A DNA stretch of 64,000 nt from contig NC_088790.1 of NCBI RefSeq assembly GCF_949628265.1, positions 17,054,545 through 17,118,544 of the forward strand, given 5' to 3'. The position numbers and the translations under genes are program-made. Source of the stretch: Cloeon dipterum. Its lineage: Eukaryota; Arthropoda; Insecta; Ephemeroptera; Baetidae. Below, in pieces: positions 39,395 to 63,461 of this stretch. Numbering within the stretch: the stretch's first letter is position 1; each line of letters starts with the position of its first letter. The notes under the pieces are model-generated. The model did not search any database. It saw nothing but the letters and a program-made list of their open reading frames with translations, and had not been told where the DNA came from.

Positions 39395-40875
39395 TTTCAC
39401 GCTGAAGGAGCACGCAGCGAGTCGTCCATCCGACTTGCTTCCGCTGACTGGCTGAGACAAATTGACTCTCTCAGGGTCAAGCATGCTCCAGTCAGCGCGT
39501 ACCTTCTCCCTTCCTCAACGCCTCTCTCAAATTACGCACTGATGATCATGATCTTCTGATTTGTTCTCGCGGCATCTATTCCTCTCGTCGGTGGATCATT
39601 GGCTTTGTTTTTAGAGTGATGTGAAATTGAACAGGAATAATTGTAAAATATGCTTGAAGGAAACATCAGTTGTGGCGGTGCTGCATGCTTTCGCCACCTA
39701 AAAACTATTTACTTTCAATGATTCTCGCACACGAATTAATCTTTACAACCCTACTTTTTGAGAAAGTTCAATCCATTGTATTTTGAAAACGGCATGATAT
39801 TTTGCTCACTGACCAGCCGCGAGTTGCGGCTGTAGATGAATAAAAGCACCAGCGCTCCAACGGTTGAGTCAGTGGGAATGTCGATTCCTAATCTTTACTC
39901 TCCTTAATGGGAGCCACATTACAATGTAAAAATCCCCATACAAAAGAGACAGTTTATTGTTAAGACAATGAAAATCACCAATGGCAATTTCAATTTCGAG
40001 CAAGTGTTACAGTGTTATACATACATATATGTCAGACACGTAGAAACACCTAGAAATGACACAATAAACTTTTTTCAACTATCGATGAGAAAATTAATTT
40101 AACAATATTAGTGTTGTGCTTTTAACAAAACGTCCACCACTTTACTTGCGTCACAGCGTGGATACAAAACAACTATAGATTTTCAACACGTGCACCAAAA
40201 AGTTGAGTCGGCACGCTCAGTTAGTCATACTGTCAACGTCACAATTTCATCACTGGCAGGAAATACAAAAATAATCCTTTACAATAAATATGCAAAGAGT
40301 GCATTCTTTTAAATTTACGCTCTCCGGCAGACATATAACGTCAAGTATTTAGATTGTGGAAAGATTTTGTTATCACGCCTTCGATTGTAAAATGATCCGA
40401 TCAAAAATTTACCTAAAAAATTGAAAAACCATATTGCAAACGTTTTTGCCATTGTTCGTTTCAATGGAAATTTTGACTTCTACTGTTAAATACGAAAAAT
40501 AAACAATTATGTAGGAACGAGTGACCAAAAATGCAATTCAAAAAATTGGAAAGGAGAAAAATTGAGTGACAATTATTGAACTGATGTATTTCAAAACCTT
40601 TTCACATTGGGACGTGCTAAGTTTCAATGAAGTCAACACAAGACTCTAAAATTTAAAACAATTTGTTTATATTTTTCTGTAGGGTTAAGGCTATGGGTCA
40701 TATTTTGACGACTTGTGTCGATAATAATTCCCTTCCGTTTGATAGCATTTTGCTACACTAAGTGAGTAAGCACTCGTCCGTCTGCAGTCGCCGGCGACGC
40801 ACGTTTTGAGATATTATAGCTCTAATCCAGAATGCAAGGAGAAAAGAACAGGAGTGCGAATCAAACGTCTCTACC
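39395..40875. promoter_or_regulatory. shared head-to-head region of GNBP and SEFIR-A
   Basis: About 1.48 kb separate the two divergent start codons. No gene lies inside. The part next to SEFIR-A (from about 40430) is conserved in the second unit, whereas the part next to GNBP exon 1 is missing there. A joint or bidirectional promoter is plausible. I find no clear NF-kB-type site that I would defend. Confidence 0.45.
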
Positions 40876-43800
40876 ATGAGGGCCTGTTCTTACGGAATTT
40901 TTGTATTGGCTGTTATCCATACATTGATACACGTGAGTCAATACTGTAATTTACCAAACAAGGAGTCATTACTTATAGTTCTTATTTTTTTTAATTGTTT
41001 TTAGTTTTTTTTATAAAATGAGCCTGCACTATAACTAAATTTGTATTGACTTAAAAAAGGTTGATGTAGACTCACGTTTGCTTTGATGCAAATATTCTTA
41101 ATTTTATTTGTGAAAAAACTGCGTCACAATCCAGTTGGTTAAAACTGAAATGTTGTGTGATTTTACTAACATAAAATAGACATGAACCTGCAGTAAAGTG
41201 CGTTTGACCAGGTTAATATTTTCCTCTGCCAATTAACAGTCCTTCGTTATGTCTCATATTATAACGCCCAAGCTTCAACCTTTTGATTAGGTGACTATGC
41301 TGCGCTCAAAACTATCAGCATGATTTTAAAACTTAATCAATTTACAATTTCAGAAATCATTATTTCCTACCCTTTAAACTTTTTGTTCGTAATTTTGTTA
41401 TTCATGCAAAAATTATGATTGTTCATTTGGAAGAAAAATACAATTTCTATGTTCAAAGTCTCCAAATTGTAGAATTTATATAATTATATAATTTAAAAAT
41501 AAAAATAATTGGTTGATTTTTTTCTGGAGTGAGATATCACTATTTGCATTTAAGTTCAGACACTCGTGTCGTCTCGGCTGCTGCAGGGCGTACTGACAGA
41601 TTTTGCTGTTGCTGAGACGCGAAGGGAGCAAAGTAACCTGCCGTGCAGGTTGCATACGCGGACAGGTGGCCCCCATAGTATAATGCATTGGAAGAAGTTT
41701 TTAAAGGATATATTTATAATGAACCATGAACAGTAAATTTTTTTACGAAAAACAATGAAAATCTTGGTATAAATAAACTCTTTGAAAATCACTGTCATAT
41801 ATTGAACTTTTCGTTATTTGATAAATTTGTCTCGTCAATACAAAAACTTTTATGCTTCTCACTGCACTTTTTTAAAGACTATAAAAGATAGTATTTGAAT
41901 ATATATCAATAACGTTAGAACAAAACAATAAAAATGGTGAGTCTTCTTTGACAGTTGCATATTATAAAAATTAAATTAGATCAACTTTCAAACCCCTTTG
42001 ACTTTCTGACGTCCAACCTTTTTATCAGGCTTGCTTGACTGGAGAGAACAACAAACCCCTTCTATTATTCCCCCCTTTTTCTGCGCATAAAAATATTACT
42101 GCTCACATGGTGATGCCAAAAACCATTCTTTTATCGCGCATCTATAATTCAAAAGATTAAACGTGGGTCGAGTGCGGGGGAAGCATTGAAAATATTATTT
42201 CAATTCAAATATCATGTGATCAAAGAGAAGGAAAAATTAGAGTTAAATCTGCAGCAGACGAAGATTCAGAATGACTGTACTATTCATCAGCACTTAAATA
42301 GCCTTGAACTCGTTATCCGAATACGCCTGCCCGGGCAATTCTGCACTGCTTGGTTGTAGAATACCATCAAGTTAAAACGCAAATTCAATATATGTAACAA
42401 TCGCTACTCTATTATGAGAAATCTCCAAACACGCCACCCCCCCCCCCCCCCCCAGAAAACTCTATCACATAAATCTTTACTTATTGTTAAGTGTTCAAAT
42501 CACAATTTAATTTTGAAATGTCACATAGGATTTTGCAAGGTACAAAATTTAATGCTGACAATTAATAGTTGTTGGATCATTTTTTAATAAAGTGAATTTA
42601 AGTGACAGTTGAGGATGAATTTTTTATTTCTATATTTGGTTTTTGCAGGGCGCGCTCGCTTCCTATCCAAGACGCATTCCTTGTATGAATGAAACGACTC
42701 CGTTTCGTAAGTAAAGAGACAAAAATAAAATAAATAAATAAATTTGTTGTTAAATCATTACAGCAAACACACTTACAACATCATTTGATGCCGAAGGTAA
42801 GTGGCCCTTCAGTGGGCTGGGTCCCTGTGCGGCCTGGTGCGCCCATGTTATCCGTTCGCGGTGTTATTGGGACCCGGGTTTCAGCATTCGTGCTAGTGCA
42901 GTGCGCGCCCTTCCCGGTCCTCGGACGGACAAGGATAATAAGAGCAAAAAAAAAAAAAAAAAAAAAAAAGTCAATTTCATTCGATTGGCCAACCAAGCTG
43001 AAATGTGATCTATTCACCAAATCTGAACTAAAATTTTACACAACTCCTCTTGAAAAATGCTCCAATGAAGAAACAATAAAATTCGATATAAGCCCGTGTC
43101 GAACCGCTACTGAATGTAGCTGCAATAATGAAACTTACAGGATTCCATACAAGATTGGGTGTATAAGTAAAGTTTGCTTAAAATTCTACTCCAAAGCAAA
43201 AACAAGAAGCATATGCTCAAGTTTTTTCAAAGTTGAACTCGAAAAATTTTCAATCTCCACATACGAGAAAGAATTCAGGTAAGCACTTTTTGTGTTCCTC
43301 GCAGAAAATGAAGGAAAACATAACTTTGCTGTACAGTATGTTTGTTCTGGGTGCTAGTATCATTTTTTGGATTGCATTAAGACGCATGAACACCTTTCTG
43401 ACATCAAATTCGTTTTCTTAAGCTCTAGCTGGATCTGTGAAAAGAATTTGATTGGAACCAAAAGCATCAATACGACTACCAAAATAACTTGATCAGCATG
43501 CCATACATGTTTTTCTTTCTTTTCTATATTTTCAGCAAGAACGTTTTTAACACTTCATATGCGAAGTCAATAAATTAATTTAGTAGATTTTTGTAGCATG
43601 AAAGATACCTACTCAGCAATTATATATTATACCATCTTATCTTTTGTATTGAAAACGGCAGTACCAAAAGCTATCAGTGGAATTTAAAATTTTTAAATTT
43701 ATGAGTCTTCACAGCCGGAGAAAATATTACTAAATATTAAATGATGTGTGGTAAAAAAATAAAAAAACAATTTCCTAACTTTGCAGACGAGAACGGGATC

Positions 43801-46511
43801 AAAAAATATATGGAAATTTTGATGTGGATTTCAAACCCAAATTGAGGCCTCCATTAAAGGTCTATGTACAAATGATAGACGAAGCAAATCACATCAAAGC
43901 ATTTACCTTTGATAAAAATAAGGCGATTAGCTGGGACATAATAGCAGTGCAAGAGGCAATTAATATTTTTGAAATTATCAAATAATATAGCGCGGTTATC
44001 ATACTTTTTTTATTTCAGGAAGACGGACACTCTCAAAAGTCAATGAATGAATCATGCGAGTTGGTAAGAAATATATTATTTTATGTATTTTATCATATCT
44101 ACTGATTTTAGTATAATTAAATTCACCCCAAATGTTTTTTCTTTTTAATTATAATTCAATTGTTCTGCTATGTTAATATTATAAAAAACGTTAAAAGCTG
44201 ATCTTTCTAGGTGTAAATGTGTGCAAATCATTTCCCTCTTTCTATATAGTTAAAAATAATACATCGTTCGTGTACTCACGCTCAGTTCCAAGAAACCAAA
44301 TTAAACTAGTAATAGTTCGTTTCTATTTTTTACTTATCGTCAATAAGTAAGAGCAGCGAATAAGAATACTGCTAGCTGGGTAGAGAGATTCTTCATGGCG
44401 GAGTAACAGGATTTCTGATCGATTTTCGGATCCTACAATGTCTAAAATCTTTATTCCCGAAACAAAGAATGCAGATCTTGTGTTTAATTGAGTTATCTCT
44501 GTTAAATTAAATTTTAAATCGTCATTCTTCGCTAAAAAATTCCCTATTTATTTGCCGATCAGGATAATTCTGCCCACGACATTTCCAATGTTCGCTGTAG
44601 ATTTGGAAAAGCTTCAATTCTAGGAAAACAAGTTGGATTCAAGGCAAGCCATAAATATTTTGAATTCTGAAGAAGATTTAACCAAACATATCAATCTTCC
44701 AGGTTTTAATTTTTGATGAGGAATGCACCATTTCTTATAAGATCATTGGCGGCGCTGTCTTTGAATGTACGTACGTGCAGTTCTATTATTTGAAGAGCGA
44801 GCTTAACATTTTGTCAATCTCCAGTCAAGGTAAAGAATTGCAGCGAAAATTGCATTGAAGAGGAAACAATGCCTAATGCAACAAAACCAAACGAGTACAC
44901 TCTTAAACTGGTAATTCCTTTGAGCGTTTTGGCATCAATTTCATTATTAGGCATCATGGCAAAGAAAAGGTCATCTATAAGGAGAAATCTCAGATGCGAC
45001 AAAAATGCTTATCAAGGTAAAAAAGCGTCCAAAACCTTTTTAATGGTAATTTTATGTGTGAACCTCAACCAGATGGGTGGAAAGCGGAAAACAGTGAAAA
45101 ATTTATACCAAACATTTTCTCGTACGCGTTCCCTTAATGTTCAGTGGCAATTTTGAGCCGCTCATCCTGTTAAAGATCAGCGCAGAGTATTGAACCATTA
45201 TAAAATATTTAGTTCCACGTTTTTTTTTTACTATTTTTCCACTTGCTCGCAATTTTGATCTTGTTTAAAAATAATCTCATACTAACTTTCTCAGCGAGAT
45301 AAAGGAAAGAACTAGACTTTCCTTAAAAATCGGTGACTAGACATGGCTCTAACTGTTGTTCAATCATTCATGTGATATAAAAATATAGATTTATTTTATG
45401 AAAATTCTTATAAAATTTGTTCCTAAAAAAGCTTTTAGATGCTTAGTATGATTTTTAAGTCAGACTAAAAAAGGAGATCAAACAAAGCATGTTGAGTTTG
45501 GCTACTTTCACGTACAATAAATGATCAATCTCTTTCATCTTTTAACACCCACAAATACGATGTTTTTATTATACTTTATTTTTCCCTTTGGTAGAGATTA
45601 TCACAATTTCCCTATAATATTTTCAATCAAATCAATGTGTTAGACCAATTTGCCTCTTTGCTTAATTCATTTATTTTGTTTGCCTGCAAGGAATATCTTG
45701 TATGAAAGAGGGAAAGAAATGAAAAAGTGACACATAATATACTTTTTTAACTTGATTGATTTAAACGACTTTCCTCCCAACAAAGAATGTTTCAATTATA
45801 AGACCATCTAATGGTTTCGATTTTTATGTCTATATTTTTAATCAGGATTGGAAAATCCTCGTTCTCCGATGAACAATTGGAATGGAAGCAGAATGAATCT
45901 TAAGTTGGTGCTGATTTATTTAAAAAAGTCTGAGCAGTTCATGGAGGCTGTCAACGAACTGAAAAAACTCCTCTGCTCGCAATTTCCCACAAGTGAAGTA
46001 GGAAGATTAATTTTCTTTTCGTAAGCAAAGTAATTTTTCAACGAAATTTAGGTCATTGATATATTTGACGAGGACTACGAAAAGGAATTCAACATCCACG
46101 GATTGCATTTTATCGCAAGGCTAACTCGAGAGGAATATGCGAATTCCAACGTCAAGATTATTTTGATCCACAGCGACGAAACTGTTCATCTCCTGCACAA
46201 GCGCGGCAACCTGGTTGAACGGGAGGAAAACGAGAAGCTGATTCATTTCGTGAACAAGGATCTGATGGAAAACCCATGCCAGTTGAAATACAACAAAGTG
46301 TACAACGTGTGCCTCGAAAAGTTCCCTCTCACCCACCCAAACCAGAGGCTTTATTTCAACAATCTGACTCTCTATCACTTCCCGAAACACTCTGAATTGC
46401 TCTGCAGAGATCTTTGCAAGTAGGCTTAATATTGCACAGCGAATTTTAAATTGCTCTAACGATTTGTTGCAATTAATATTTTGCAGATGTTGCAGTGTTA
46501 CCAACGTATGA
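40876..46511 (+). CDS. SEFIR-domain receptor A (IL-17 receptor-like), coding exon interrupted by SINE
   Basis: This is a single-pass receptor. The exons are 40876-40932 (signal peptide, MRACSYGIFVLAVIHTLIH), 42649-42706, 42764-42796, the insertion (42797-42969), 42971-43278, 43787-43946, 44019-44063, 44563-44643, 44703-44766, 44825-45016 (TM, LVIPLSVLASISLLGIM), 45846-45997, 46052-46419 and 46487-46511. The cytosolic part is a SEFIR domain: LKLVLIYLKKSEQF, then VIDIFDEDYEKEF, then NVKIILIHSDET. SEFIR domains recruit Act1-type adaptors in IL-17 signalling. The insertion shifts the frame if read through. Splicing GTAAGT at 42797 to the AG at 42883-42884 restores it (542 residues, with a Lys run). 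The intron after 44643 starts with GC. The exon starting at 43787 could end at 43946 (GT) or 43955 (GC). It is therefore either a pseudogenising or a SINE-exonised allele. Confidence 0.75.
41160..42013. other. segment present only in SEFIR-A intron 1
   Basis: In the second unit the flanks join directly (TGTTGTGCGAACCTTTTTATC near 49358-49372). About 0.85 kb is thus either inserted here or deleted there. It contains a GC-rich patch (about 41555-41690) resembling 12072-12146, which favours a transposable-element insertion. No coding capacity is recognised. Confidence 0.55.
42797..42969 (+). mobile_element. SINE-like poly-A retroposon inside SEFIR-A exon 3
   Basis: These 173 bases are GC-rich and end in an uninterrupted run of 24 A. 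They are absent from the identical site in SEFIR-B, where GAT GTC GAA GAA AAC reads straight through. The body starts GTAAGTGGCCCTTCAG and ends CCCGGTCCTCGGACGGACAA before the tail. A truncated relative lies at 13399-13440. The pre-insertion sequence would be GAAGAAAAGTCAATTTC, fully in frame. Target-site duplication cannot be told apart from the A run. It may be a short SINE or the truncated 3' end of a LINE. Confidence 0.8.
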
Positions 46512-47105
46512 AATTTCTGGAAGTTGGAGAGTAAAGTGACGATGATTTTTACAGACGTGTGTGAATATTTTTCCACAGACAGTTAAGCATTTACGTTCTT
46601 GAAGCTAGTATTAAAGTTTTTTTTCAATTTTCTGTATTTTACTTCCACGGTACAGTTAAACGTTTTTATAGTATTTATATTAGTGTATGGTCAGTTTATA
46701 TAAGTGCCATAATCTCCAGACGAGGCATTTGTATTTTTACATTTATATGATGAATTTTAATTTAACTCAGAATAAAACTAATGTGATAGTCACTCTTATA
46801 TTTTATTCAAGTTTTATCATTTAAGCACGATGCAGTCTTCTTACCCCGTATGTAGTGCGGGTCTTAATTTGAGATCAAAGTTTCTAGAATATTCTCGTTC
46901 GCACTAAATCTCTTCCTAGCCGGAGGGAGAACATGTTGCTGTGACTGCTCCGGTGCGAGTCTGATTGTGCAGTAAGGGACGTAAGGGTGCACTGCTTATC
47001 ACACACCTTGACACTGCCACCTGGCGATACAGGTTTAATGCAAACTAGTTAATAGGACAGTAGTGGCGAGAAGGCGCCACACCATAATATCGCTGTATGT
47101 TAATC
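46512..47105. other. junction between duplication units
   Basis: Up to about 46825 this is SEFIR-A 3' flank, homologous to 53225-53530. From about 46827 to 47105 there is a sequence with higher GC than its surroundings and no counterpart elsewhere in the window. It has no open frame of note. It may be a piece of a mobile element tied to the rearrangement. Confidence 0.45.
46771..46776 (+). terminator. poly-A signal of SEFIR-A
   Basis: AATAAA lies 260 bases after the SEFIR-A stop codon, in a position matching the signal at 53483 after SEFIR-B. Confidence 0.55.
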
Positions 47106-47354
47106 AAGTGTGAGCCAAGGAAGGGGACCAGCGCCGGCCGAGAAAGCCACGAGGTAGAGGCAAACAAAAATAATCGAAAGTCAACCAATTCATTTCACAC
47201 TTTGTGCGTCGCCCTCCCTTAAAATACAAATAAATTTGATTCAACAAAAATAAAAAAAACAGTTAATTAGCATTAAGAAGGAATTGAAAATTATTTTTTA
47301 CATGTGGTACAAAAGTAGACGCTGAGGAGGAACGTGGACATGGCCATAGCTACC
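47106..47354 (-). pseudogene. Tret-C gene fragment (two partial exons with intron)
   Basis: The stretch matches 60877-61130, inside Tret-C, at high identity. It covers the upper part of the exon coding for the GAGPIPWLTLGE region, the complete intron, and the lower end of the next exon. Because the intron is kept, it arose by DNA duplication, not retroposition. An extra A near 47313 shifts the frame, several missense changes are present, and no other exon of the gene is here, so it cannot make a transporter. It lies immediately before the second duplication unit. Confidence 0.85.
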
Positions 47355-47451
47355 TAATAAAATTAGCGATCCTAGTTCAAATTTAAACAATCAAATAATT
47401 TAAATTCCTTAACAAGAATAATTGAAATAATTATATCTGAAGCAAACCCAC

Positions 47452-48618
47452 TGGTGCATCCGCAATGTAGACGGAGTGCTTCCACTTGCGTGTGTCCAAC
47501 GAGTCGAAGTGATCTTGGAAAAGGAGCTGCCCTTTGCAGACAGGTTTTCCGTTCACAATCGTACTGGAAGGTCGGCACTGCTGAGCTGCTGCAGAAGGTC
47601 GTTTAGTGGTGGCCGCAGCCGGCAGTTTCGGAGCCGGAGGACGAGGCGTTGCGGCGGGAGCCACAGGGGCGGCAGGCCGTGGCGGCATTGGCGAGCTGCC
47701 CCCGGCACTCAACTCCACTCCAGGCCATGTTATATTTTCGGGCACTTCTTGAACTGCTTGGTTTGGAAGTGGAGTTATGGCTGAATGGCCCAATGTTAGT
47801 CAAACAGTAAAAAATATAGCTTTATATGATTGGAAACTTTGGAGGATTGATTATGAGAGATCTGATATGAGAGAAAGAGATCTCGTTATTTCCTCATTGA
47901 AAATTATTTATATGCAGGAAATATACTGTCGAAAGGAAATTCCACAATAATAACTTTGAGTTGTGATATATCTCGGTAACATGAAAGAGGCATCAGTCAA
48001 CAATACGTTGCATAAAGACATAATTCGATTGGTAGCGAGTTATCCTAAATTGGAGTTTTTATGGCTAAAATTATTTTTGTACGCTCAAAAATGAAAATAT
48101 TGTAATAAAATTTCTGATACTAATCTTATTACAACTACAACTTTTTATATTTCTACGTTGGTTTCCCCTTATGTAATCTTTGGTTAAATAAACTTCCTTG
48201 AGCTTTACAGCTACTAACTTGAAACTTCTAAGAAACATATTGACGATAAAAATGTATTTTCGTGCTTGTTCCATTGGACTATCGAAGCAAGATTAATTGT
48301 TCCGGAAATGCCTACTTTCAAGAGTGTGGTTTTCCCCTTAAAATGCCAATTTTCCTAAATCGTATCTAATCAGACCCTATACGACTGATATTTTAATCGA
48401 CATGCGTATATTACCATTGACCCTGAAGGAATGTGGTCCTGAAAAGTGCAGCTTGCCCTTGTGCTCAACGGCAAGTTTGTAGTTGATGATGTCACCTTCC
48501 TTGAGAACTTCGTGAGGAAAGAAGAAAACCCAGAGGCGGTTGCTGTGCGCTTGGCGGAGTTCCTTGGTCAAGCTGGCTGTTGTGTCCGAAATGGACAGCG
48601 GCTTATTCACGTTGGCCA
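47452..48618 (-). pseudogene. GNBP pseudogene fragment (exons 2 and 3 only)
   Basis: An exon-2-like block (48415 to about 48618, truncated at its 5' end) and an exon-3-like block (47780-47452) remain. They encode the CBM39 core, the Pro/Ala linker and the start of the GH16 domain, ending IADAP. Exon 3 differs from the parent by one deleted codon and a few substitutions and has no stop. Exon 1 with the signal peptide, and exons 4-10, are absent. No functional recognition protein can be made, although the fragment could be transcribed. The relative lack of stops suggests a recent event. Confidence 0.85.
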
Positions 48619-49074
48619 GAACCATATTGCAAACTTTTTTGCCGTTGTTCGTTTTAATGAAAATTTTGACTTTTGCTATTTGACATGAAAAATAAACAAT
48701 GATGTAGGGAAGAGTGATTAAAAATGTAATTCAAAAAATTGGAAAGGAGAAAAATTGAACTACAATTATTGAACTGATGTAATTCAAAATATTTTTCCAA
48801 TTGAGACGTGCTAAGTTTCGATGAAGCCAACTCAAGACTCTAAAATATAAAACAATCTGTTGATATTTTTTCGCTAGGGTTAAGGCTATAGGCCATATTT
48901 CGACGACTTGTGTCGATAATAATTCACTTCCGTTTGATAGGATTGCTACACTACTCCGAAGTGAGTAAGCACTCGTCCGTCTGCAGTCGCCCGCGACGCA
49001 CGTTTTGAGATATTATAGCTCTAATCCAGAATGCAAGGAGAAAAGAACAGGAGTGCGAATCAAACGTCTCTACC

Positions 49075-52000
49075 ATGAGGGCCTGTTCTTACGGAATTTT
49101 TGTATTGGCTGTTATCCATACATTGATACACGTGAGTCAATACTGTAATTTACCAAACAAGGAGTCATTACTTATAGTTCTTATTTTTTTTAATTGTTTT
49201 TAGTTTTTTTTATAAAAATGAGCCTGCACCATAACTAAATTTGTATTGACTTAAAAAAGGTTAATGCAGACTCACATTATTTGCTTTGATGCAAATATTC
49301 TTAATTTTATTTATGAAAAAACTGCGTCTCGATCCAGTTGGTTAAAACTGAAATGTTGTGCGAACCTTTTTATCAGGCTTGCTTAATCGGAGAGAACAAA
49401 CCCCTTCTATTATTCCCCCTTTTACTGTGTATGCAAATATGATTTTACTGCACACATGGTGATGCCAAAAATATTTCAACTATCGTGCATCTATAGTTCA
49501 AAAGACTATTCATAACAAGTCTGAGTGGCTCACAGTATTTGTAAATCACATGCACTGCGTACGCTTGTAAGGCAAGTAAATGCATTAAACGTGGGTCGAG
49601 TGAGGGAAGCATTGTAAATATTATTTCAATTCAAATATCACATGTGATCGAAGAGAATGAAAAATTAGAGTGAAATCAGGAGCAGACGAAGATTCAGAAT
49701 GATTGTACTATTCATAAGCACATAGCCTTGAACTCGTTATCCGAAATGCCTGCCCGCGGAACTCTGCACTGCTTGGTTGTAGAATACAATCAAGCCATAA
49801 CACAAATTCAATATGTAACAATCGCTACTCTATTATGAGAAATCTCCAAACACGCCACCACCCCCCAGAAAACTCTATCACATAAATCTTTACTTAATGC
49901 ATGTGTTTAAATCATAAATTAATTTTGAAATGTCACATACGATTTTGCATGATATACAATTTATTGCTGACAATAAGTATGTAGTTGCCTGGATCATTTT
50001 TTAACTAGTACATTTAAGTGACAGTTGAGGATAAATTATTTATTTATATATTTGGTTTTTGCAGGGCGCGTTCGCTTCCTATCCAAGACGCATTCCTTGT
50101 ATGAATGAAACGACTGCGTTCCGTAAGTAAAGAGAAAAAATAAAATAAATAATTAAATTTGTTGTTAAATCATTACAGCAAACACACTTAAAACATCGTT
50201 TGATGTCGAAGAAAACTTAATTTCATTCGATTGGCCAACCGACCTGGAATATGATGTATACAACAAATCTCAACTGAAATTTTACAGTGCTGGTCCTGAA
50301 GAATGCCTCGATGAAAATAAAATAGAGCAATTTGCGCCCCCAATAAAATTCGATATAAGCCCGTGTCGAAAATCTCTTGAATGCAGCAGCATTAAAGAAA
50401 CTTTTAGGGTTCCATACCAGATTTGGGATATTAAACCTTTAATTAAAGTATGCCTGGAATTCCCATCCCCAGTAAAACAAAGAAGCATATGTTCAAGTTG
50501 TTTCAAAGATGAGAGAAAAAAATATTCAATCTCTGCGAACGGGAAAGAATTCAGGTAAGCGCTTTTTGTTTTCCTCGCAGAAAATGAATGAAAACATAAC
50601 TTTCCTGTTCAGTCTGTTTGTGCTGGGTGCTTGCATCATTTGATTTGAATTTTTGGATTTCATTAGGGTGCATGAACACCTTTCTAACATCAAAATCGTT
50701 TTCTTAAGCTCTTAGCTGTATCTGAGAAAAGTTTTTCATTGGAACCAAAATAACTTGATCGGCGCGCCTTATACATGTTTTTCTTTCATTTATATATTTT
50801 TAGCAACAAAGTTTTTAACACTTCATATGCGAAGTCAAGAAATTAAATTAGTAGATTTTTGTAACATGAAAGATACCTGCTCAACAATTAGATATTTAAC
50901 GATATTTAATTTTTGTATTGAAAACGGCAGTGCCAAAATCTATTAGTAAAATTTAAAATTATTACATTTATTATTAGTCTTCACAGCCTGAGAAAATATT
51001 ACTAAATATTAAATGATTAGTGATATAAAATAAAATACTTTTTTTTAAAACTTTGCAGACGAGAACGGGATCAAAGAATATATGGAAACTTTAACGTGGA
51101 TATCGAACCCAAACTGAGGCCTCCACTCAAGGTCTATGTACAGATGATAGACGAAGCACATCACAATAATGCATTTACCTTTGATAAAAATGAGTCCATT
51201 AGCTGGGACATAATAGCAGTGCAAGAGGCAATTAATATTTTTTAATTCCTTTATCAAATAATACAGCTCGGTTATCATGCTCTTTTTTATTTCAGGAAGA
51301 CGGAAACTCTCAAATTTCAATGAATGGACCATGCGAGTTGGTAGGAAATATTATTTCTTATATCTTATTATTTCTACTAATTTCAGTATAATTAAATTCA
51401 CCCAAAAATGTTTTTTTCTTTTAATTATAATTTATAGCTATTCAGCTGTGATAATATTTGAAAAACGTTAAAAGCTGATCTTTCCAGGTGTAAATGTGTG
51501 CAAATCATTCCCTGCTTTCTATTTAGTTAAAAATAATGTATCATTCAAGTACACACGCCCAGTTCCAAGAAACGTCATCAAGCTTGTAATGATTCGTTTT
51601 TATTTTTTACTTATCGTCAATAAGTAAGAGCAGCGAATAAGAATACTGCTAGCTGGGTAGAGATTCTTCATGGCGGAGTAACAGGATTTCGGATCAATTT
51701 TCGGATCCTACAATGTCTAAAATCTTTATTCGCATAACAAAGAATGCAGATCTTGTGTTTAATTGAGATATCTCTGTTAAATTAAATTTTAAATCGTCAT
51801 TCTTCGCTAAAAAATTCCCTATTTATTTGCCGATCAGGATAATTCTGCCCACGACATTTCCAATGTTCGCTGTAGATTTGGAAAAGCTTCAATTCTAGGA
51901 AAACAAGTTGGATTCAAGGCAAGCCATAAATATTTTGAATTCTGAAGAAGATTTAACCAAACATATCAATCTTCCAGGTTTTAATTTTTGATGAGGAATG

Positions 52001-53224
52001 CACCATTCCTTATATGATCATTTACGGCGCTGTCTTTGAATGTACGTACGTGCGGTTCTATTATTTGAAGAGCGAGCTTAACATTTTGTCAATCTCCAGT
52101 CAAGGTAAAGAATTGCAGCGAAAATTGCATTGAAGAGGAAACAGTGCTTAAAGCCACCAAACCAAACGAGTACACTCTTAAACTGGTCATTCCTTTGAGC
52201 GTTTTGGCATCAATTTCATTATTAGGCATCATGGTAAAGAAAAGGTCATCTATAAGGAGAAATCTCAGATGCGACAAAAATGCTTATCAAGGTAAAAAAG
52301 CGTCCAAAACATTTTAAATGGCATTTTTTTGTGTGAATCTGCCAGCAAAATTTTTCTCGTTGCTTCATTTGGGTAAAATTTATTATTATTTTTTTAATGC
52401 AAGGAATTTTCTGTGTGAAAGACTGAAAGAAATGAAAAAAGTGACACATATTCAAATTTTAAATTTGATTGATTTAAACGACTTTCCTCCCAACAAAGAA
52501 TGTTTTAATTATAAGAACATCTAATGGTTTCGATTTTTATGCCTACATTTTTTATCAGTATCAGAAACTCCTCGTTCACCGATGAGCAATTGGAATGGAA
52601 GCAGAATGAATCTTAAGTTGGTGCTGATTTATTTAAAAAAGTCTGAGCAGTTCATGGAGGCTGTCAACGAACTGAAAAAACTCCTCTGCTCGCAATTTCC
52701 CACAAGTGAAGTAGGAAGATTAATTTTCTTTTCGTAAGCAAAGTAATTTTTCAACGAAATTTAGGTCATTGATATATTTGACGAGGACTACGAAAAGGAA
52801 TTCAACATCCACGGATTGCATTTTATCGCAAGGCTAACTCGAGAGGAATATGCGAATTCCAACGTCAAGATTATTTTGATCCACAGCGACGAAACTGTTC
52901 ATCTCCTGCACAAGCGCGGCAACCTGGTTGAACGGGAGGAAAACGAGAAGCTGATTCATTTCGTGAACAAGGATCTGATGGAAAACCCGTGCCAGTTGAA
53001 ATACAACAAAGTGTACAACGTGTGCCTCGAAAAGTTCCCTCTCACCCACCCAAACCAGAGGCTTTATTTCAACAATCTGACTCTCTATCACTTCCCGAAA
53101 CACTCTGAATTGCTCTGCAGAGATCTTTGCAAGTAAGCTTAATATTGCACAGCGAATTTTAAATTGTTCTAACGATTTGTTGCAATTATTATTTTGTAGA
53201 TGTTGCAGTGTTACCAACGTATGA
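49075..53224 (+). CDS. SEFIR-domain receptor B (IL-17 receptor-like), 11 coding exons
   Basis: The exons are 49075-49131, 50065-50122, 50179-50554, 51059-51218, 51296-51340, 51838-51918, 51978-52041, 52100-52291, 52559-52710, 52765-53132 and 53200-53224. All phases agree and give 525 residues without stops. A 19-residue signal peptide exon identical to that of SEFIR-A is followed by a Cys-containing ectodomain of about 290 residues, a TM helix at about 308-326 (LVIPLSVLASISLLGIM), a basic stop-transfer segment and a SEFIR domain (about 358-480). The intron after 51918 is of GC-AG type (TTCAAG/GCAAGC). Exon 3 lacks the SINE of SEFIR-A and has an 11-residue insertion around ENKIEQFAPP. The SEFIR exon 52765-53132 encodes the same protein as in SEFIR-A. 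The role by analogy is a cytokine-type receptor using an Act1-like adaptor. The ligand is unknown. Confidence 0.85.
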
Positions 53225-53482
53225 AATTTCTGGAAGTTGGAGAGTAAAGTGACGATAATTTTTACAGGCGTGTGAAAATTTTTCCACAGACAGTTAAGCA
53301 TTTACGTTCTTGAAGCTAGTATTACAGTTTTTATTTTCAATTTTCTTTATTTTACTCTTACTTACTATTAAACATTTTTATAGTATTTATATTAGTGTAT
53401 GGTTAGTTTATATAAGTGTCATAATCTCCAGACAAGGCATTTGTATTTTTACATTTATATGACGAATTTTAATTTAACACTC

Positions 53483-53488
53483 AATAAA
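53483..53488 (+). terminator. poly-A signal of SEFIR-B
   Basis: AATAAA lies about 260 bases after the SEFIR-B stop, equivalent to the signal at 46771. Confidence 0.55.
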
Positions 53489-53946
53489 ACTTAGTCACTA
53501 TAATTTTTTATTCGTGTTTTATAATTTAAGCCTAACCTGTTTATTTGTTAGGAATATCCAGAACCCAGCTGGCCCATAACACAGTAAACAAAGTTGAACC
53601 CAGTATCAATCATTTATTGCTTTTGCAACAAAATTTTCCAGCATTTTATCCTGCACAGTTGTCAAAAAATAGGAAACAAATTTCATAAACACATATATGG
53701 CAATGATAAAAATGCAGGAAGAGAAAAAAGAGCAATCAAAAATTTAAAAAGTAATCTCCATTATTAAATTGATCTTGACCATAATATGGCTGTATGATAA
53801 TACAGATTTTGTAATTAAATTTCTCGTTATTACCAAATAATAAGTCTATTTCGAACCAGTGATATTTTAATATTTTTGAGAAGATAAAATAATTGAATGA
53901 ATTTATTATTAAACGCATATATGCGTGCGACACTAATCCTATACAA

Positions 53947-54771
53947 TCAATTCTTACAAGTCTTCGCTGCTGTTCTTAAACTAATTCTTTTTACTACACA
54001 TTTCAAAATATGGTATTTTTCACACTGTTCTCCACAAAATCTACATTTACAAATCTCCTGAGGTTCATAATGGTACATCTGAGTTGCACAGAACAAATAG
54101 TGATATCCATGGCATGCAAATCGAGTAAATACATGTCTATCTTCAAAATTCGGCACCCTCCAATTCCCATTCATCATTGTTTGAGTTTCATAAAATGCAT
54201 CACAAATCAAGCGTCTATTCATAATCTTTATGTTAACAAACTTCTTATAATTATCAGTTTCAGGGAGATCATATTTCATTTTAAGATCTGTAGCAAAAAG
54301 GTTTAAGTCTTTGGTCACCAGTTCATAGACGTATCGCGATCTATTGTATTTAGAGATCCCCAGCACTTTCTTTAGATATCGGGTTTTGACTCGCTCTAAT
54401 GTTTCAAAATCATGAATAGTAAGATAAGGCCAAATAACTTCTATGCCATAAGAGGCAGTAGGAGAAACTTTTAGGTCAAAGAGTTTAACTGCCGTTTCAA
54501 TGGAAAGTTTATGCAAGTTTTTAATACTATACGTTGCCATAAGGGCTGCCCTCGCTCGTTTCTCCACATGCCTACCAAAGGATAATCCTGATACTTGAAA
54601 CATAACACCCAAATAACAAAATTCAGGGACAAAATCCACATTCACACCTTCTAATACAATTTTTTCATTCAATGCATAACGACCTCGTCCCTTATTTCTA
54701 AATTTCATTGCCTTACATTTATCTAAGTTCAACTGAAGACTTCTAGTTTGTAAGTATTCCTTTACAGCCAC
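53947..54771 (-). mobile_element. 5'-truncated non-LTR retrotransposon, reverse-transcriptase C-terminal part
   Basis: An open frame of about 274 residues covers the end of a LINE reverse transcriptase. The LNLDKCKAMKFRNKG segment and YLGVMFQ (the classic 'K-[ST]-K ... YLG' stretch after the catalytic palm) are followed by the thumb (HVEKRARAALMATYSIKNL). The C-terminal Cys/His knuckle is CKCRFCGEQCEKYHILKC. The catalytic YADD and the endonuclease are missing, so it is dead on arrival. The family resembles mobile elements with apparent Jockey/CR1-like tails, but I cannot name it. It lies just outside the 3' edge of duplication unit 2. Confidence 0.85.
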
Positions 54772-55008
54772 ACACAGAAGATAAAATAAATAAGTTTTTT
54801 AATACTTTTTTTCGTATGTCTTTAAAGAGTGTAGGCAGCGATTGAATCGCGCGGTGTTTTTAAATCTCGTCGCGTTTTCTATTCACGCTGACTGAGAGTG
54901 CCCTCGTGCAAGCGCTAGTGCGGTTCTCTTTTTATCAGTTCGTCCGTTGGTCGGCGGTGGCAAGAGAAGAGAAGAGCGCGAGCTAAAAGAGCGAGAACCA
55001 ACGCAGCA

Positions 55009-58000
55009 ATGATGGGCATGCCATTCGCTGCCCTTTTACTTATTATTTCTATTTTGAGCTGTTTCACCAACCTTGTCATTGCTGACAATTTAAATTGCCC
55101 AGTGAGTATATTTTACCTATTACAATATTTTAATAATATAGAGGTGTTAAGAAATAACCTAGCTTTAAACGGAGATAAATAATTTTAGCCTTGCTATTTC
55201 TATCTTCGTTTTGCGACGATAGAGAAGAATATTGCGTGAAATTTTATTTGCGGTTTTAGCAACGTGTTTTCCCTTCAATCACTCGCTCTCAACGATAAAA
55301 GATGACTGCTACGACGTGATTAAATGAGAGCTGTTATTGCTTACGTCATAGGGTTACAGAGACGACCACATGCGCTGTTAAAAATAATCGGAAGCAGAGC
55401 AAAATGAATTCCTTTTTCCTTACGAATTTAAAGAAATAATTAAGCGCTTTGATTTGTATTTAATTGATATTTGCCATTTAAAAGCACTGACGCAACAAAT
55501 CTAGCTTTGAGACGCATATGCATTAGTTCAAGGCAACATTGCTATCACAATTTGTGGTTTCATTCGCGAAGGAAGTGCTATAAGAAGTTGCCTTACATGA
55601 TTATTTTTAAATAATAATATTTAAAAAAGCATGGTAGAGCAGTTTTAAGTAATTTTTATTTAATATTTCTAAAACATTAAAATTCTACACAAAGCGTGGA
55701 CAGGGAAAAATTTTCCTTAATCACAAATACGAGAAAAAAACTAAAACCTTTTTGTTCCTTCCCTTATTACAGAAATATTTATTAAAAAATAAGTTTAGTT
55801 TAAATATATAGATCTTCTTTAGACAAAATATGTGACGCGAAAATTTTAAAGTGGATTAAGTTCAAATAAAACTTTTTGTTTGCCAAAATTTATAAATAAA
55901 ATCAATAAATGTAATAATAAAATTGAATTTTTAATTAATAAAGCATCATCCCCTAGACGACCCAAGTGACAATATGTTCACCGAGACGAGATTTTGATAA
56001 GCCAATAAGCTGCAGCAGGAAAATATTTATTACAAAAATCATGCGTAGCATTAAGCGAAAGGGTGAGCGTGGGTCGTTTTTCTCGTGATCTTTCCTTTTG
56101 GCGTCTGACAGTGAATAAATTGATAGCAAAACCCACATCTATCGGGATTGCATCAACGTATGAACAGGAAAAATTTGTCCAAAATGTTACTGTGATTTTG
56201 AGGAAAACACCTAATTTCGTCTAAATACTGAGGATCCATTCCAACTGGGTGTTGACAATGTTTGGCCCAAACTGTGCCTGTATTTTTACTGCATTCTATG
56301 ATGAGAATAAACAGCAAAAAAATTTTAAGTAAAATTAAAATTTAAGCTGGAGATTGAAATCATTTTTAAAATTTAAGGTATCAAAAGCTCAAATTAATAC
56401 TGAAAATCTTGTGGAAAAGATTAAAAAGTATAAATAATTTGTTTATTATTGTTGCAAAGTTCAATACATGTAGAGTTCACAAAGTCTAAAAGGAAATAAT
56501 TTAATGTGCTATAATATGGAAGTAGGTACTTTGCAAAATTAAACACGTGGATAGTGTCAACGCTAACATAATAATCCGATGGATGAAGTGAATATCAGTT
56601 TGAAATCCCTATTTGGCATCGATTTGGTAATGAAGACGAAATAATTTGATTAATTTAAAAGTAACAATACCACATTAACAACTCAATATCTAAAACTAAC
56701 TAAGCTATTACTTGAGATTTCAGTAATTTGACACTTTTTTGGCAAAGGAATATGATGTGAAATGAATATTCTGAAGATTCACAAAGTTTTATATAAATTT
56801 TATGAACAAAATTCAGAGCGAGTATTATAGTTTTATATTTAAATCGCTTTTTCACCCATAGCATATTTCCACGATAGTTAATTTAAATCTTATGAATTTT
56901 TCAGAGGTCATTTGATCAACATAGAAACGAACGGTCTATAGCCTGTTCAAGTTCAACTGATATACGTAAGCTTATATTCAATTGTGCTCCATATTCTATT
57001 ACTAATGTTTGACTGATACAGCAAAACGCGTGAATGCCTCTCTAACTGCATGGGGAAAACAGCATATCACCGTTTCTCTCGTCTGGCCACTTATCAACTG
57101 TGATGATTTCAAAAATTACAATGTGATGGTGACCATTTACAGGAAAAATGAGCCTGATGATCTCGCATTCCGTGACAAAGACCGTTACTTTACGAAATAT
57201 TACACCCTAAGGACGGATCAAAGTAGTCCTGCCAGTTCTGGCACATTGGAACAGTTCCAAATCAAGGCCAAACGGGGCTACTATGGATTGAAATTGGTTT
57301 TATCGCCGAGAATCCGAAATTTCAATGAATGGTCATCTTCCACTCTCTACGTTGATGGAGCAACAAATTACGCTAACCTCTCATTCAAGCATTATAAAAA
57401 GGAAACGCTCCGGTAAGTTTCCTCTTTGGAAATTCCGATAAATTAGGAAATGCTATGGCCAATTCATTAATTCTTTCTTATAGTAATTTATACTTTATCA
57501 TAAAATCCGCAGATTGAGCCTAGACCAAAAAGTTCCAGCCATATTCAATGGACGAATTGAACCTAAATTAGATCCCTATGCAAAAGTTTACATCTCGATG
57601 ACGAATAACAGTGCGCACACAAATCAATGCGTCTGCGATGAGAATACAATCGATTGGGTAGTGTTCGACGAAGCGTCACTAGAAGTAAATTTCATCTGAA
57701 CTTGCATTTACGAATAACTCTCTTGAAAATTTTCAGGAGCAGAAAGATGGCGTTCGCGAGTCACTAAATTCGCTAGAAATAAATTGCACATTGGAGTCAA
57801 AGGTAATATTACTTTATTTCAGACTTTCTAATGTTTCATTTTTTCCACGCAGGATAACTCAACCGTCATCGAATGTGACTTTGTCAGAGTTCCAGTCGAG
57901 GAAGATGGCGTATATTTCAAGGCATGCATTTTCATTTATACTTAAAATAAATGTGAAATTAATTAAAAACTGGTTATATACTTTTATATTACAGGTAATT

Positions 58001-59269
58001 GTTCGCGGAGATAGTTTGTGTGAGTATGGCTCCGAGGATAATACAAACATTTGTTGCGCTGAATTCTTTTGTAAGTGTTTTGCAACGTGAAAAAAATTTC
58101 CAAAATTAATTAGACGCACCTTCCAGATAAAGTAACAACTAGTCCTACAGACAAATACAACGCCCCACCAAAGTCGGATAATGATCTCCATCAGCCTGGA
58201 GTAGCAATGCGTACAATAGCAATTCTGCTTGTGGTAGTGTGCACCTTGGCGTCGATTGGAATATTGTTCATCCTGATAAAGAATAGAACCTTCATTTGGA
58301 AGACTTTGATGAGAAAGTATGAGATGGAGCCACAAGGTGAGAGAAAATAAAGCACACTTGAATTGAGAAATAAAAACATTATGTAGCTGTTGTGTAGTCG
58401 TGGTGGCGCTGAAATTGCGCATCGCTCAACAGACAACCAAATTTTTACTGTCGGAATTGATAGTTGCCCTTTTCTTTAACAAAAATCGCGTTTGGTTTGA
58501 GTTATGCGCAATTTTTCCGATCCTAGACACTGTGGTCTTAAAAAATTCGTATACTTATAAAGTTTACAATTATTTTAAAAGCGTTTTCTAAACCACTGAT
58601 GAGCACGACTAATAGAAGTAAAATGAGCCTTAACATATTGCTGGTCTACTCTAAAACCACCAAGAATTTCAAGGATGCCGTTGGAGAATTGAATAAAAAT
58701 CTCTGCACAGTTTTCCCATCAAGCGAGGTATGTTTTTATACATTAAAAATTAAATCTGAGTTAGCAACAAACCTTTCAGGTCATCGATATATTCCATGAA
58801 GATTACGAACAGCAATTGAACATCCATGGATTAGAGTTTATCACCAAATTCACACGAGAGGGAGGCGCAAATCCCAATGTCAAGATAATATTGATCCACA
58901 GTGATGAAACTGTCGGTCTCCTGCAAAAGCGTGGCCACTTAAAAGAATGCGAGGAAAACGAGAAGCTGATTAAAATCGTGTACAAGGATCTGACGGAAAA
59001 CCCGTGCCAGTTGAAATACAACAAAGTGTACAACGTATGCCTCGAAAAGTTTCCTCTCACGGATCCGAACCAGAGAATAAAAATGAACAATCTAACTACT
59101 TATTACTACCCGAGGCACGCTGAATTGTTGTGCAGGGATCTTTGCAAGTAAGAAAATTTTAAATCAGTTATATGCTTTCTAAATGATTATTTAATTACTA
59201 TTAATAAGCGAATTTAATTTTCCAAAATTTTAATTGCTAAATCCACTCTATAGGACTGCCGAGGTGTAA
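55009..59269 (+). CDS. SEFIR-domain receptor C (IL-17 receptor-like), 11 coding exons
   Basis: The exons are 55009-55101, 56905-56965, 57022-57412, 57513-57684, 57737-57802, 57853-57921, 57995-58070, 58127-58336, 58582-58727, 58780-59147 and 59254-59269. All phases agree and give 555 residues. A signal peptide (MMGMPFAALLLIISILSCF) is followed by an ectodomain of about 300 residues rich in Asn glycosylation sites, a TM helix at about 339-361 (TIAILLVVVCTLASIGILF) and a SEFIR domain from about 396 (LNILLVYSKTTKNF, VIDIFHEDYEQQL, NVKIILIHSDETVGLL). Exon number, order and phases equal those of SEFIR-B, and exon 10 has the identical length (368 bases). The intron after 57921 begins GC, as in A and B. 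The ectodomain is only distantly similar to A and B, so this is an older paralogue. The acceptor at 58580-58581 is weak and was chosen on frame. Confidence 0.85.
55102..56904 (+). other. SEFIR-C intron 1
   Basis: This is 1.8 kb of AT-rich intron between the signal-peptide exon and the ectodomain. I see no repeat or gene in it. Confidence 0.4.
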
Positions 59270-60489: not shown

Positions 60490-63461
60490 TTAGAATTTAT
60501 CCATTTGAATATTGTGTTGTCCTTTTGAGGTAATGTTTTGCGAGAAGTGCGACGCGTTGCTACTGTCTGGCTGTCTGGCCAACATGGCCTGAATCTGCTC
60601 GAGGCTTTTGCCGCGAGTCTCAGGAAGGAAGAAGTAGACGAACGCCAGACCGAGCAGCAGCAGCGCGGTGAAAAGCCAGAATGCACCTGAGCCGTTAATC
60701 GCACTTACGAGATCTCCGAAAAATCTGAAAAAATTTAAATTATGTAGGCATATTATTCAAGTATATTTTTTAACAAAAATAAAGTCATACCTTGTTACCA
60801 GGAAAGCGAGGAGCCAGTTGAAACAGCTTGAAAAGGCTGAGGCAAAACCCTTGACTTCCGAGGGGAAAAGCTCACCAAGTGTGAGCCAAGGAATGGGACC
60901 AGCGCCGACCGAGAAAGCCACGAGGTAGAGGCACACAAAAATAATCGGAAGCCAACCAATTCCTTCCACACTCTTTGCGTCACCCTCCCTGAAAATATCA
61001 ATCAATTTGATTAAAAAAAAACAAAAAATAAAAAAAACAGTTAATTAGCATTAAGAAGGAATTGAAAATTATTTTCTACCTGTAGTACAAGTAGACGCCG
61101 AGGAGGAGCGTGGACAGGGCCATGACCGCCTGAGACGCGCCCATCAGCGCCCGTCGGCCGAGCCGGTCGACGACCATTAGGGCGGCAACGGTTGCGATGA
61201 TCTGCACGGCGCCGACGATGACGACGGTGTAGCGGGCCTCCAGTGAGGAGCCAGCAGCCTTAAAGAGATCCTCTGTGTAGAAGATGACGGCGTTGATACC
61301 GGACAACTGCTGGCACGCCATCAGACCGATGGACACCAGCAGGGCGACGCGCGCGGCCTTGCCATTCTCGCCCGTGAACGACTGCTTCAGCGAGGTCGAC
61401 TGCTCGCGTTCGCTCTCGCACGCCAGCTCCATCTCGCGCAACTCCAGGTCGCACTCTGCACCGCCGCGGAACCATCGGAGGGCGCTAAAGTAATATGAAC
61501 GATAGAGTTAAGTTAAAATTTAATTTTTTTCAATCATCCTCGTTGCTTAAAACAGGAATATTTTTACGCAACGAGGATGATTAATTCCGTTCAGAATACG
61601 CATTTTTAGGGGGAAGAGTGTCTTGATTTTCTAACTTTCTTAATTTAGAGTACATACTTGTAAGCTTCGGATCTCTTCCTAGCCTTAAGGAGGTATTGCG
61701 GCGTCTCAGGCATCCAGAAGAAAATAAAGGCAAAGATGACGGGAACAGCGAGACACAGAGAGTTGAGCACCGTGAACGAGGCAAAGGCGCCGACAAGATA
61801 CGTGAACTCGATGCCGATGACCACGTTAAGCTGGAACAGCGTGCCCAACGTGCCGCGGATTTCCTTCTCCGCAATCTCACCCACGTAAAGGTTGCACGCG
61901 ACGCAGAAGACACCGCCGCAGAAACCTGTTGATATATTGGTAAAAATCATATTGTTACACGTCTAGTTTCTGATAGCAGTAATTCACGCAACAATTTAAC
62001 CATTTGACCACACCCTAGATGGCTTTGCGATTAAATTTGATTTCATCTTGACTGGTATTCTGGTGTACCCATAATATAAGTGACAATATAGTCTAATCAT
62101 TTTTGGACACTGAACTATTTTTTCCAAAATGATATTTGATATTGGGGCCGTACGTTTCAAATAAAAATATGAATGAAGTTAAAAGAGAAAACAGTTGTAA
62201 TTTAAACGAAATGATTTAACATTTTAAGATGCGTTGAAAACATAATAATAATTAACAAGAAACGCGGTTATATTATTTAGTAGATTCAAACAACTGCCTA
62301 AAATTTTAATATTAAAAAAACGTAACTTTAGAATGTTGGTTTATAGCTTCTTTAAATAATTTTTAGATATAACAGACCTCAATAAACATGCAAAATTGCG
62401 TTTTTAGAGGATTTTTAATAACAATCAACGAATAAAGTTTCTGGCCTAGAGCACAGCATCGTTTTTTATGTCGACTCATATGAATGTGTTAAATGCTTTA
62501 ATTTTTAGCTGTTTTTTTTTTGTATCGTTATAACATATTCATGCTTCATGAATTTCTTTCAAGATAAGTTTATTTTCCTTTCGAAAGCTTTTTGTTTCCA
62601 TGTTTTTTTTTTATTTTCATGTGCCTATTTATCCTCCTACAAGAACAAAAAACCCACTTACACAACAAACGTTCACCATAGTTCAATATTTTGTAAAAGA
62701 CACGTCGCGAAAATTGATAAATCTATTTTGATCAAGATATTACCTGTGATCACTCTGCCCACGTAGAGCATGTTGACCGACGAGGCCCAGAGGATGAGTG
62801 CCCATCCGATGGCGAAGGGTACGGCCGTCCAGAACATGGTTTGCTTGCGTCCGATCTTGTCCACGAGGTATCCGGCTGGGAAGTTGGAGGCGGCCGCGCC
62901 CAGCGTCAGCAAAGAGCCGACCCACGCGAACTCGGAAGGGGTTACCTGCAGCGGGCCTCCCTGGACATGGCTACTTGCGGGCGATGACCAGCCGATGACT
63001 GTACCTAGGGCGAAGGCACCCAAGCCAGCTGCAAATACACACAATTTGATTATTTTGCAATTTTATGGTTTAATTAATTTGATGATAATTGTGCCAAAAT
63101 AAAAACTTTGGAAAAGAACAGCCCACTACACACGAAGCATTAAATTACTTCTAAAATGAATAGTTAAGTTTGAATCCAAAAAATGAGATAGCGTTCAAAA
63201 CTATTCAAATCAAAAATTAAAAATCAGGATTTTTATTTAAAAAATATTGAATAAACAGTTATCAAATGAACTAGTTAAATTAATTATCTTATTTTCAAGC
63301 TTTGTGAAAACATTATTAAACTTATGAATACCAGATATCGCAGCCATATACTGGGTCAGTCTGCGAGGCTTCTGGCCTGCCGCCTCTTCAGCCTTGAGAT
63401 TGGCTGCCACCGAGTCCACAGATCCAGTAACCAGCGTGGCCGTGCTTGCTGTTGCGCTCAT
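60490..63461 (-). CDS. Tret1-like MFS sugar transporter (Tret-C), 6 coding exons
   Basis: The exons are 63461-63332, 63028-62744, 61925-61658, 61484-61080, 60988-60791 and 60724-60490. All phases agree and give 506 residues. A 43-residue N-terminus precedes TM1 (AGLGAFALGTVIGWSSPASS). Motifs seen are DKIGRKQTMFW after TM2, NLYVGEIAEKEIRGTLG, PETPQYLLKA, QQLSGINAVIFYTEDLF, DRLGRRALMGASQ, GAGPIPWLTLGELFPSEV and PETRGKSLEQIQ near the C-terminus. The C-terminal tail is longer and more polar than in Tret-A and Tret-B. An intron splits the region that is a single 535-base exon in the other two transporters. It is expected in the plasma membrane as a trehalose/hexose facilitator (family inference). 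A fragment of this gene is found at 47106-47354. Confidence 0.9.
61926..62743 (-). other. Tret-C intron 2
   Basis: This is 0.8 kb of AT-rich intron, holding only T-rich stretches and chance open frames. Confidence 0.5.

Follow-up and report, generated by a model that had tools for sequence, protein, structure and literature searches.

The described systems that most closely resemble the one considered here come from decapod crustaceans. Their IL-17R/CFSH receptors, such as Lvit-IL-17R and Sp-SEFIR, are presented in the portions of the reports that were available as proteins with a signal peptide, an ectodomain, one transmembrane (TM) helix, and a cytosolic SEFIR domain, and a ligand carrying an IL-17 domain occurs in the same animal. 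In the nematode Caenorhabditis elegans, the family is represented by the receptors ILCR-1 and ILCR-2 and the ligand ILC-17.1, in a pathway that uses an Act1-like SEFIR adaptor, and in vertebrates by the receptors IL-17RA-RE together with Act1. Here, a cluster of three tandem genes of common build, designated A, B, and C, is described from an insect, the mayfly Cloeon dipterum. The cluster occupies 40.8-59.2 kb on the plus strand of a 64,000-nucleotide stretch (positions 17,054,545-17,118,544 of contig C5, referred to below as the window) in a genome of 190 Mb and 10 contigs. The reading frames of the three genes indicate a signal peptide, an ectodomain, one TM helix, and a SEFIR-type domain, and the genes very probably encode members of the IL-17 receptor family, of type I and single-pass, that have been retained in this insect.

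The literature on insects has pointed the other way. In the excerpts available, one survey reports no IL-17 in the pea aphid, the honey bee, or the fruit fly and one in Daphnia (PMC4517768), another finds none in the honey bee and a single, doubtful gene in the fruit fly (PMC8353272), and a third source counts CFSH as a hormone seemingly missing from insects (PMC4888303). No description of an insect IL-17 receptor was found in titles and abstract starts among the matches listed, a body of literature that leaves subscription journals mostly outside and does not extend to automatic database annotation. As surveyed insects have been reported to lack IL-17, the cytokine is usually regarded in comparative immunology as one that this group has lost. 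With ligand and receptors in one insect, the ancestral role of the system in arthropods could be tested, as defence or as sexual differentiation of the kind seen in decapods, and SEFIR signaling could be studied if no Act1 exists in it.

Receptor Genes and Their SEFIR Domains

The original prediction had named three IL-17-receptor-like genes in this part of the window, and the first coordinate that it gave, 40876, is exactly the ATG of gene A. Exon borders were set by eye at AG/GT sites with the frame preserved, without a gene predictor or transcripts, and the signal peptides and TM helices of the receptor genes are likewise calls made by eye from the frames rather than by a prediction program. 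With borders set in this way, B can be read except for the stretch between exon 5 and the TM exon, and C except for exon 2, whereas the ectodomain frame of A is interrupted in the assembly by a short interspersed nuclear element (SINE), contrary to the prediction. The final seven exons of gene C (57022 through the stop), separated by GT-AG introns, form an open frame of 473 residues. The motifs on which the prediction had drawn, LVLIY / ILLVY, VIDIF[DH]EDYE, and NVKIILIHSDET, are all found in the sequence of the window genes.

Assignment of these domains to SEFIR depends on a paralogue rather than on the Pfam scores of the window genes themselves. A protein search of the genome recovered two further genes, D and E, on contig C3, bringing the total to five receptor genes, and in both of these, frames for a signal peptide, an ectodomain, a TM helix, and a SEFIR domain can be recognized by eye. 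Gene E exceeds the Pfam SEFIR cut-off (27.3 bits against 23) with a match that spans profile positions 2-150 of 150. When E was used in a single-sequence search, D scored 78.5 bits, C 53.5, and B 52.4, against a top score of 5.9 among 1000 shuffles; a profile built from D and E gave 90.9 bits for C and 79.8 for B, with the best shuffle at 9.3. A phase-0 intron between Glu and V-[IV]-D is common to B, C, D, and E and can be assigned to A by near-identity to B in that stretch. Membership of the window domains in SEFIR is thus supported, as judged from sequence comparison through E (27.3 bits for E; 52-54 bits for C and B against 5.9), and the architecture read from the frames is that of IL-17 receptors. 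The type I single-pass build is recognizable in B, C, D, and E, with A failing as assembled.

A Candidate Ligand and Downstream Partners

The prediction had proposed looking for an IL-17 ligand in the same genome, and this search was positive. Pfam IL17 gave one match above cut-off across the genome, at C5 16,592,120-16,592,332 on the minus strand, approximately 0.5 Mb from gene A. Two exons with a phase-0 join make up the ligand gene, the first with a hydrophobic start resembling a signal peptide (called by eye) and the second with the IL-17 domain. The scores are 28.1 bits for the domain exon and 26.4 bits for the joined two-exon protein, against a cut-off of 24. At this search sensitivity the ligand is single-copy, with two other rows at E 6.8 and 9.3. 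The protein has CPT at the position of the CPW motif, with its cysteines read by eye; variation in the third residue of that motif is noted in the excerpts of an earlier account (PMC8353272). The presence in the same genome of an IL-17-type ligand gene whose product looks secreted is supported by these sequence features. Three further IL17-family rows in the genome, all below cut-off and with frames unlike IL-17 by eye, were set aside.

The suggested check for an Act1/TRAF adaptor was borne out in its TRAF half, TRAF-type MATH domains being found over cut-off at two places in the genome. When the genome was searched with SEFIR from C, E, and D, only the five receptor genes came up below E 1, and weak additional SEFIR rows on C1 (E 4.9, frames read) and C2 (E 1.5) were treated as chance. 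The TRAF6-binding motif, P-x-E-x-x-[aromatic/acidic], is absent from the tails of B and C.

Several results weigh against the assignment of these genes to an IL-17 system. On Pfam SEFIR, gene C scores 16.1 bits and gene D 15.9 bits, both below the cut-off of 23, and gene B, whose SEFIR protein is the same as that of A, gives no SEFIR match and only an unrelated sub-threshold match to Mob_Pre; the Pfam comparison with SEFIR and TIR called for by the prediction is in this sense mixed, with paralogue E passing SEFIR, C sub-threshold, B unmatched, and no match to TIR. PDB profile searches with SEFIR alignments yielded chance-level rows only (E 0.31 and above), with no PDB SEFIR chain matched, and for B, C, D, and E the ectodomain gives no Pfam match over cut-off. 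The three genome searches by SEFIR domain described above yielded no Act1-type SEFIR adaptor, although a divergent or intron-split one could be missed by them. When the ligand was compared with PDB sequences, the sole row below E 10 was IL-25, at a non-significant E of 1.2. A Pfam SEFIR search of the raw genome at E 0.001 was also without a match; the domain is split by an intron, and because control genomes were equally blank, this result is not a test of absence.

Comparison with the described systems brings out both shared and divergent features. As in decapods, the receptors combine a signal peptide, an ectodomain, one TM helix, and a SEFIR domain, and an IL-17-type ligand is encoded in the same genome; the decapod receptors belong to crustacean hosts, whereas these belong to an insect, and Sp-SEFIR continues for approximately 150 residues beyond SEFIR (domain at 376-498 of 652 residues), whereas the insect proteins end with SEFIR, a comparison made by description only from the accessible part of the source. 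The C. elegans receptors are, like these, ecdysozoan, and the roughly joined ectodomain of gene E matches Pfam Ig_ILCR1 below threshold (14 bits against 27), but the Act1-like adaptor of the nematode has no counterpart detected in the searches of the mayfly genome described above. With vertebrate IL-17RA-RE the mayfly genes share the SEFIR domain and the receptor architecture, although sequence similarity is low and vertebrate Act1, too, is without a detected equivalent. Taken with the ligand, an ancient cytokine system seems to survive in this insect.

Immune or Endocrine Role

How such a system would operate can be modeled on the pathway steps of the IL-17 family, from which we infer ligand-receptor pairing, dimerization, SEFIR-SEFIR contact, and signaling through TRAF-type proteins. 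A secreted IL-17 dimer, encoded on the same contig, would presumably engage the divergent ectodomains, after which the cytosolic SEFIR domains would associate with one another or with an adaptor and signal via TRAF-type proteins to a transcription factor. The ratio of five receptor genes to the one ligand detected points to a signal shared by different receptor pairs.

The original prediction had gone further, proposing an undescribed immune system. The receptors of IL-17 type and the ligand gene are there; the immune part was reasoned rather than read from the locus, and the decapod counterparts are endocrine according to the parts of the reports that were accessible (PMC10604874, PMC10418988). 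A clue offered in favor of immunity, the nearness of a glucan-recognition gene, has lost much of its force, as part of this GNBP-like gene was carried in the same tandem duplication as a receptor gene, so that its position says little about function. A CFSH-like endocrine role in sexual differentiation or growth, which would leave these genes as real IL-17 receptors and compete only with the immune interpretation, is a serious candidate, one that we place somewhat below an even chance. In the same decapod reports, as far as their accessible text goes, GST pull-downs show SEFIR receptors to be bound by CFSH, a hormone with an IL-17 domain, and knockdown of the receptor alters sexual differentiation or IAG expression (PMC10604874, PMC10418988). 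Veenstra, in the excerpt available, saw a real possibility that more primitive insects have a CFSH-type system (PMC4888303). Against this, IL-17 is described in partly available sources as immune in sea urchin larvae and in marine molluscs (PMC5457136, PMC8353272), and the locus itself cannot separate the two interpretations. Neither an immune nor a hormonal function is rated above even odds.

Duplication and Mosaic Divergence of Genes A and B

Genes A and B are, by their alignment, tandem duplicates: identity is 82-94% across the aligned blocks, and part of the GNBP-like neighbor belongs to the duplicated unit. Divergence between them is distinctly mosaic. In 150-base windows, identity is 98-100% around the signal-peptide exon, 96-100% over the intron tract ahead of the TM exon, and 98.7-100% over the SEFIR exons, but falls to 79-81% over most of ectodomain exon 3. 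The SEFIR exons differ by one synonymous and no nonsynonymous changes in 164 codons, and the proteins encoded by SEFIR exon 2 are identical at 123/123 residues, compared with 94/123 between C and B. Ectodomain exon 3, in contrast, has a synonymous divergence (dS) of 0.28 and a nonsynonymous divergence (dN) of 0.26, with 60/102 residues identical; exon 4 (dS 0.27, dN 0.08) and the TM exon (dS 0.08, dN 0.03) complete the pattern. From this mosaic, gene conversion seems to have kept parts of A and B, including the signaling half, near-identical. Following the tandem duplication, conversion would have homogenized the signaling half while the main ectodomain exon drifted, and the SINE would have entered A later. 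Positive selection on the A/B ectodomain was considered and rejected, as dN/dS in exon 3 is about 0.94 and dS is raised too.

The element in A is an insertion of approximately 170 bases with a GTAAGT near its start. A first look at the genome gave 1622 candidates, and of the best 40 that were scored, the copy in the window was at 100% and the 39 others at 99% identity; the insertion is, from these copies, a young, high-copy SINE-like element. As 170 is no multiple of three, gene A is frame-shifted in this assembly; the poly(A) run may have been read at a wrong length, however, and the shift is not certain.

This frame shift, together with the dN/dS of about 0.94 in exon 3, is what could be expected if the cluster were decaying, that is, if recent duplicates were becoming pseudogenes with little function. 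Decay of this kind is decidedly unlikely. SEFIR exon 2 of B and C, at dS 0.77 and dN 0.15 over 123 codons, indicates constraint, exon 4 of A and B has a dN well under its dS, and gene C is open across its seven resolved exons. The fullest account compatible with these data would be that a complete, working IL-17 ligand-receptor system was kept here from a pancrustacean ancestor and lost in model insects, with five receptors, one ligand, and no Act1, its signaling half homogenized and its ligand-binding half diverging. We hold it tentatively, at just under an even chance.

Other Identities for the Ligand and for the Receptor Domain

An alternative for the ligand is a cystine-knot hormone, whether PTTH or another. 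According to the excerpts of one survey, proteins that are annotated in Drosophila as PTTH isoforms have an IL-17 domain (PMC8353272), so that a Pfam IL17 match alone is not decisive, and PTTH was taken as a control because these isoforms had once been counted as IL-17. The E of only 1.2 for the IL-25 match also leaves room for such a hormone. The control comparisons nevertheless make this identity very unlikely. Bombyx PTTH itself matches Pfam Noggin, sub-threshold, and not IL17. Compared with Bombyx PTTH, the ligand gives a z of 1.3, with 221/2000 shuffles as good, whereas the IL-25 fragment gives a z of 10.6 with 0/2000, a value inflated by preselection of the fragment as the best match. 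The best PTTH match of this genome lies elsewhere, on C1, and is weak (E 0.03); it is a PTTH/Trunk-like frame at C1:32249542-32249844 with 35% identity to Bombyx PTTH over query residues 15-100.

That the receptors instead carry TIR or other flavodoxin-like domains of the Toll/IL-1R type is extremely unlikely, for although SEFIR and TIR are related folds and C and D lie below the SEFIR cut-off, SEFIR is matched by C, D, and E, in the last case over cut-off and to position 150 of 150, and none of B, C, D, and E gave a Pfam TIR match up to an E of 10, in a search whose filters remove most matches above 0.1.

Neighboring Genes and Other Features of the Genome

Coordinates of the receptor genes, the insertion, and the duplicated neighbor are collected in Table 1.

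Table 1. Positions in the window of the receptor genes, their exons, and associated features
Feature	Position	Strand	Remarks
GNBP-like region, first copy of duplicated unit	37187-38425	-	named by eye, no Pfam match; 89% identity to 47397-48619
Gene A, IL-17-receptor-like	40876-46423	+	ATG 40876; stop 46421-46423
Gene A signal-peptide exon	40876-40932	+	followed by ectodomain exons
SINE-like insertion	about 42797-42970	+	about 170 bases, poly(A) tail; in main ectodomain exon (exon 3) of A; no counterpart in B
Gene A TM exon	about 44800-45010	+	
Gene A SEFIR exons 1 and 2	about 45860-45997; 46052-46423	+	second includes stop
GNBP-like second copy	47397-48730	-	apparently partial; co-duplicated with gene B; CBM39 exon 48377-48730, 26 bits, cut-off 25
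Gene B, IL-17-receptor-like	49075-53136	+	tandem duplicate of A; ATG 49075; stop 53134-53136
Gene B exons 1-5	49075-49131, 50065-50122, 50179-50554, 51059-51218, 51296-51340	+	join in frame
Gene B TM exon	about 52069-52300	+	exon list leaves out the stretch from exon 5 to the TM exon
Gene B SEFIR exons 1 and 2	about 52570-52710; 52765-53136	+	second includes stop
Gene C, IL-17-receptor-like	55009-59151	+	ATG 55009; stop 59149-59151
Gene C signal-peptide exon	55009-55101	+	exon list leaves out exon 2
Gene C exon 2	56905-56965	+	one weak candidate
Gene C ectodomain-side exons	57022-57412, 57513-57684, 57853-57909, 57995-58070	+	
Gene C TM exon	58127-58336	+	
Gene C SEFIR exons 1 and 2	58582-58727; 58780-59151	+	second includes stop

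When the four GNBP-like frames were run through Pfam, a match was obtained for the CBM39 exon only. In the first GNBP-like copy, approximately 2 kb (38426-40426) sits where the second copy is continuous. Between B and C, a 283-codon frame on the minus strand (53947-54798) resembles by eye the end of a non-long terminal repeat (non-LTR) reverse transcriptase, and Pfam gave it only an unrelated sub-threshold match. Sugar transporter genes of the Tret1 kind lie at 16-19 kb (minus), 32-34 kb (plus), and 61-63 kb (minus) of the window; Pfam Sugar_tr is over cut-off in both frames tested (32007-32582 and 61076-61507), and the genes at 16-19 kb were named by eye.

Elsewhere in the genome, of 25 candidates scored for 7tm_6, five matched at E 0.001 or better, on C2, C3, and C4, including one Orco-like exon, the frame of which contains the Orco hallmark. 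These matches are a mark of an insect genome and point to a small odorant-receptor set, with five as a lower bound. The repeat (TTAGG)5 was searched for and does not occur in the genome, and TTAGG is reported, in the portion of the source available, to be missing in mayflies, dragonflies, and Diptera (PMC8977481). The Parkin of this genome scores 283 and 276 bits with the PDB chains 6djw and 6djx and 262 bits with 5caw. The first two of these chains we take to be fruit fly Parkin and the third that of the body louse.

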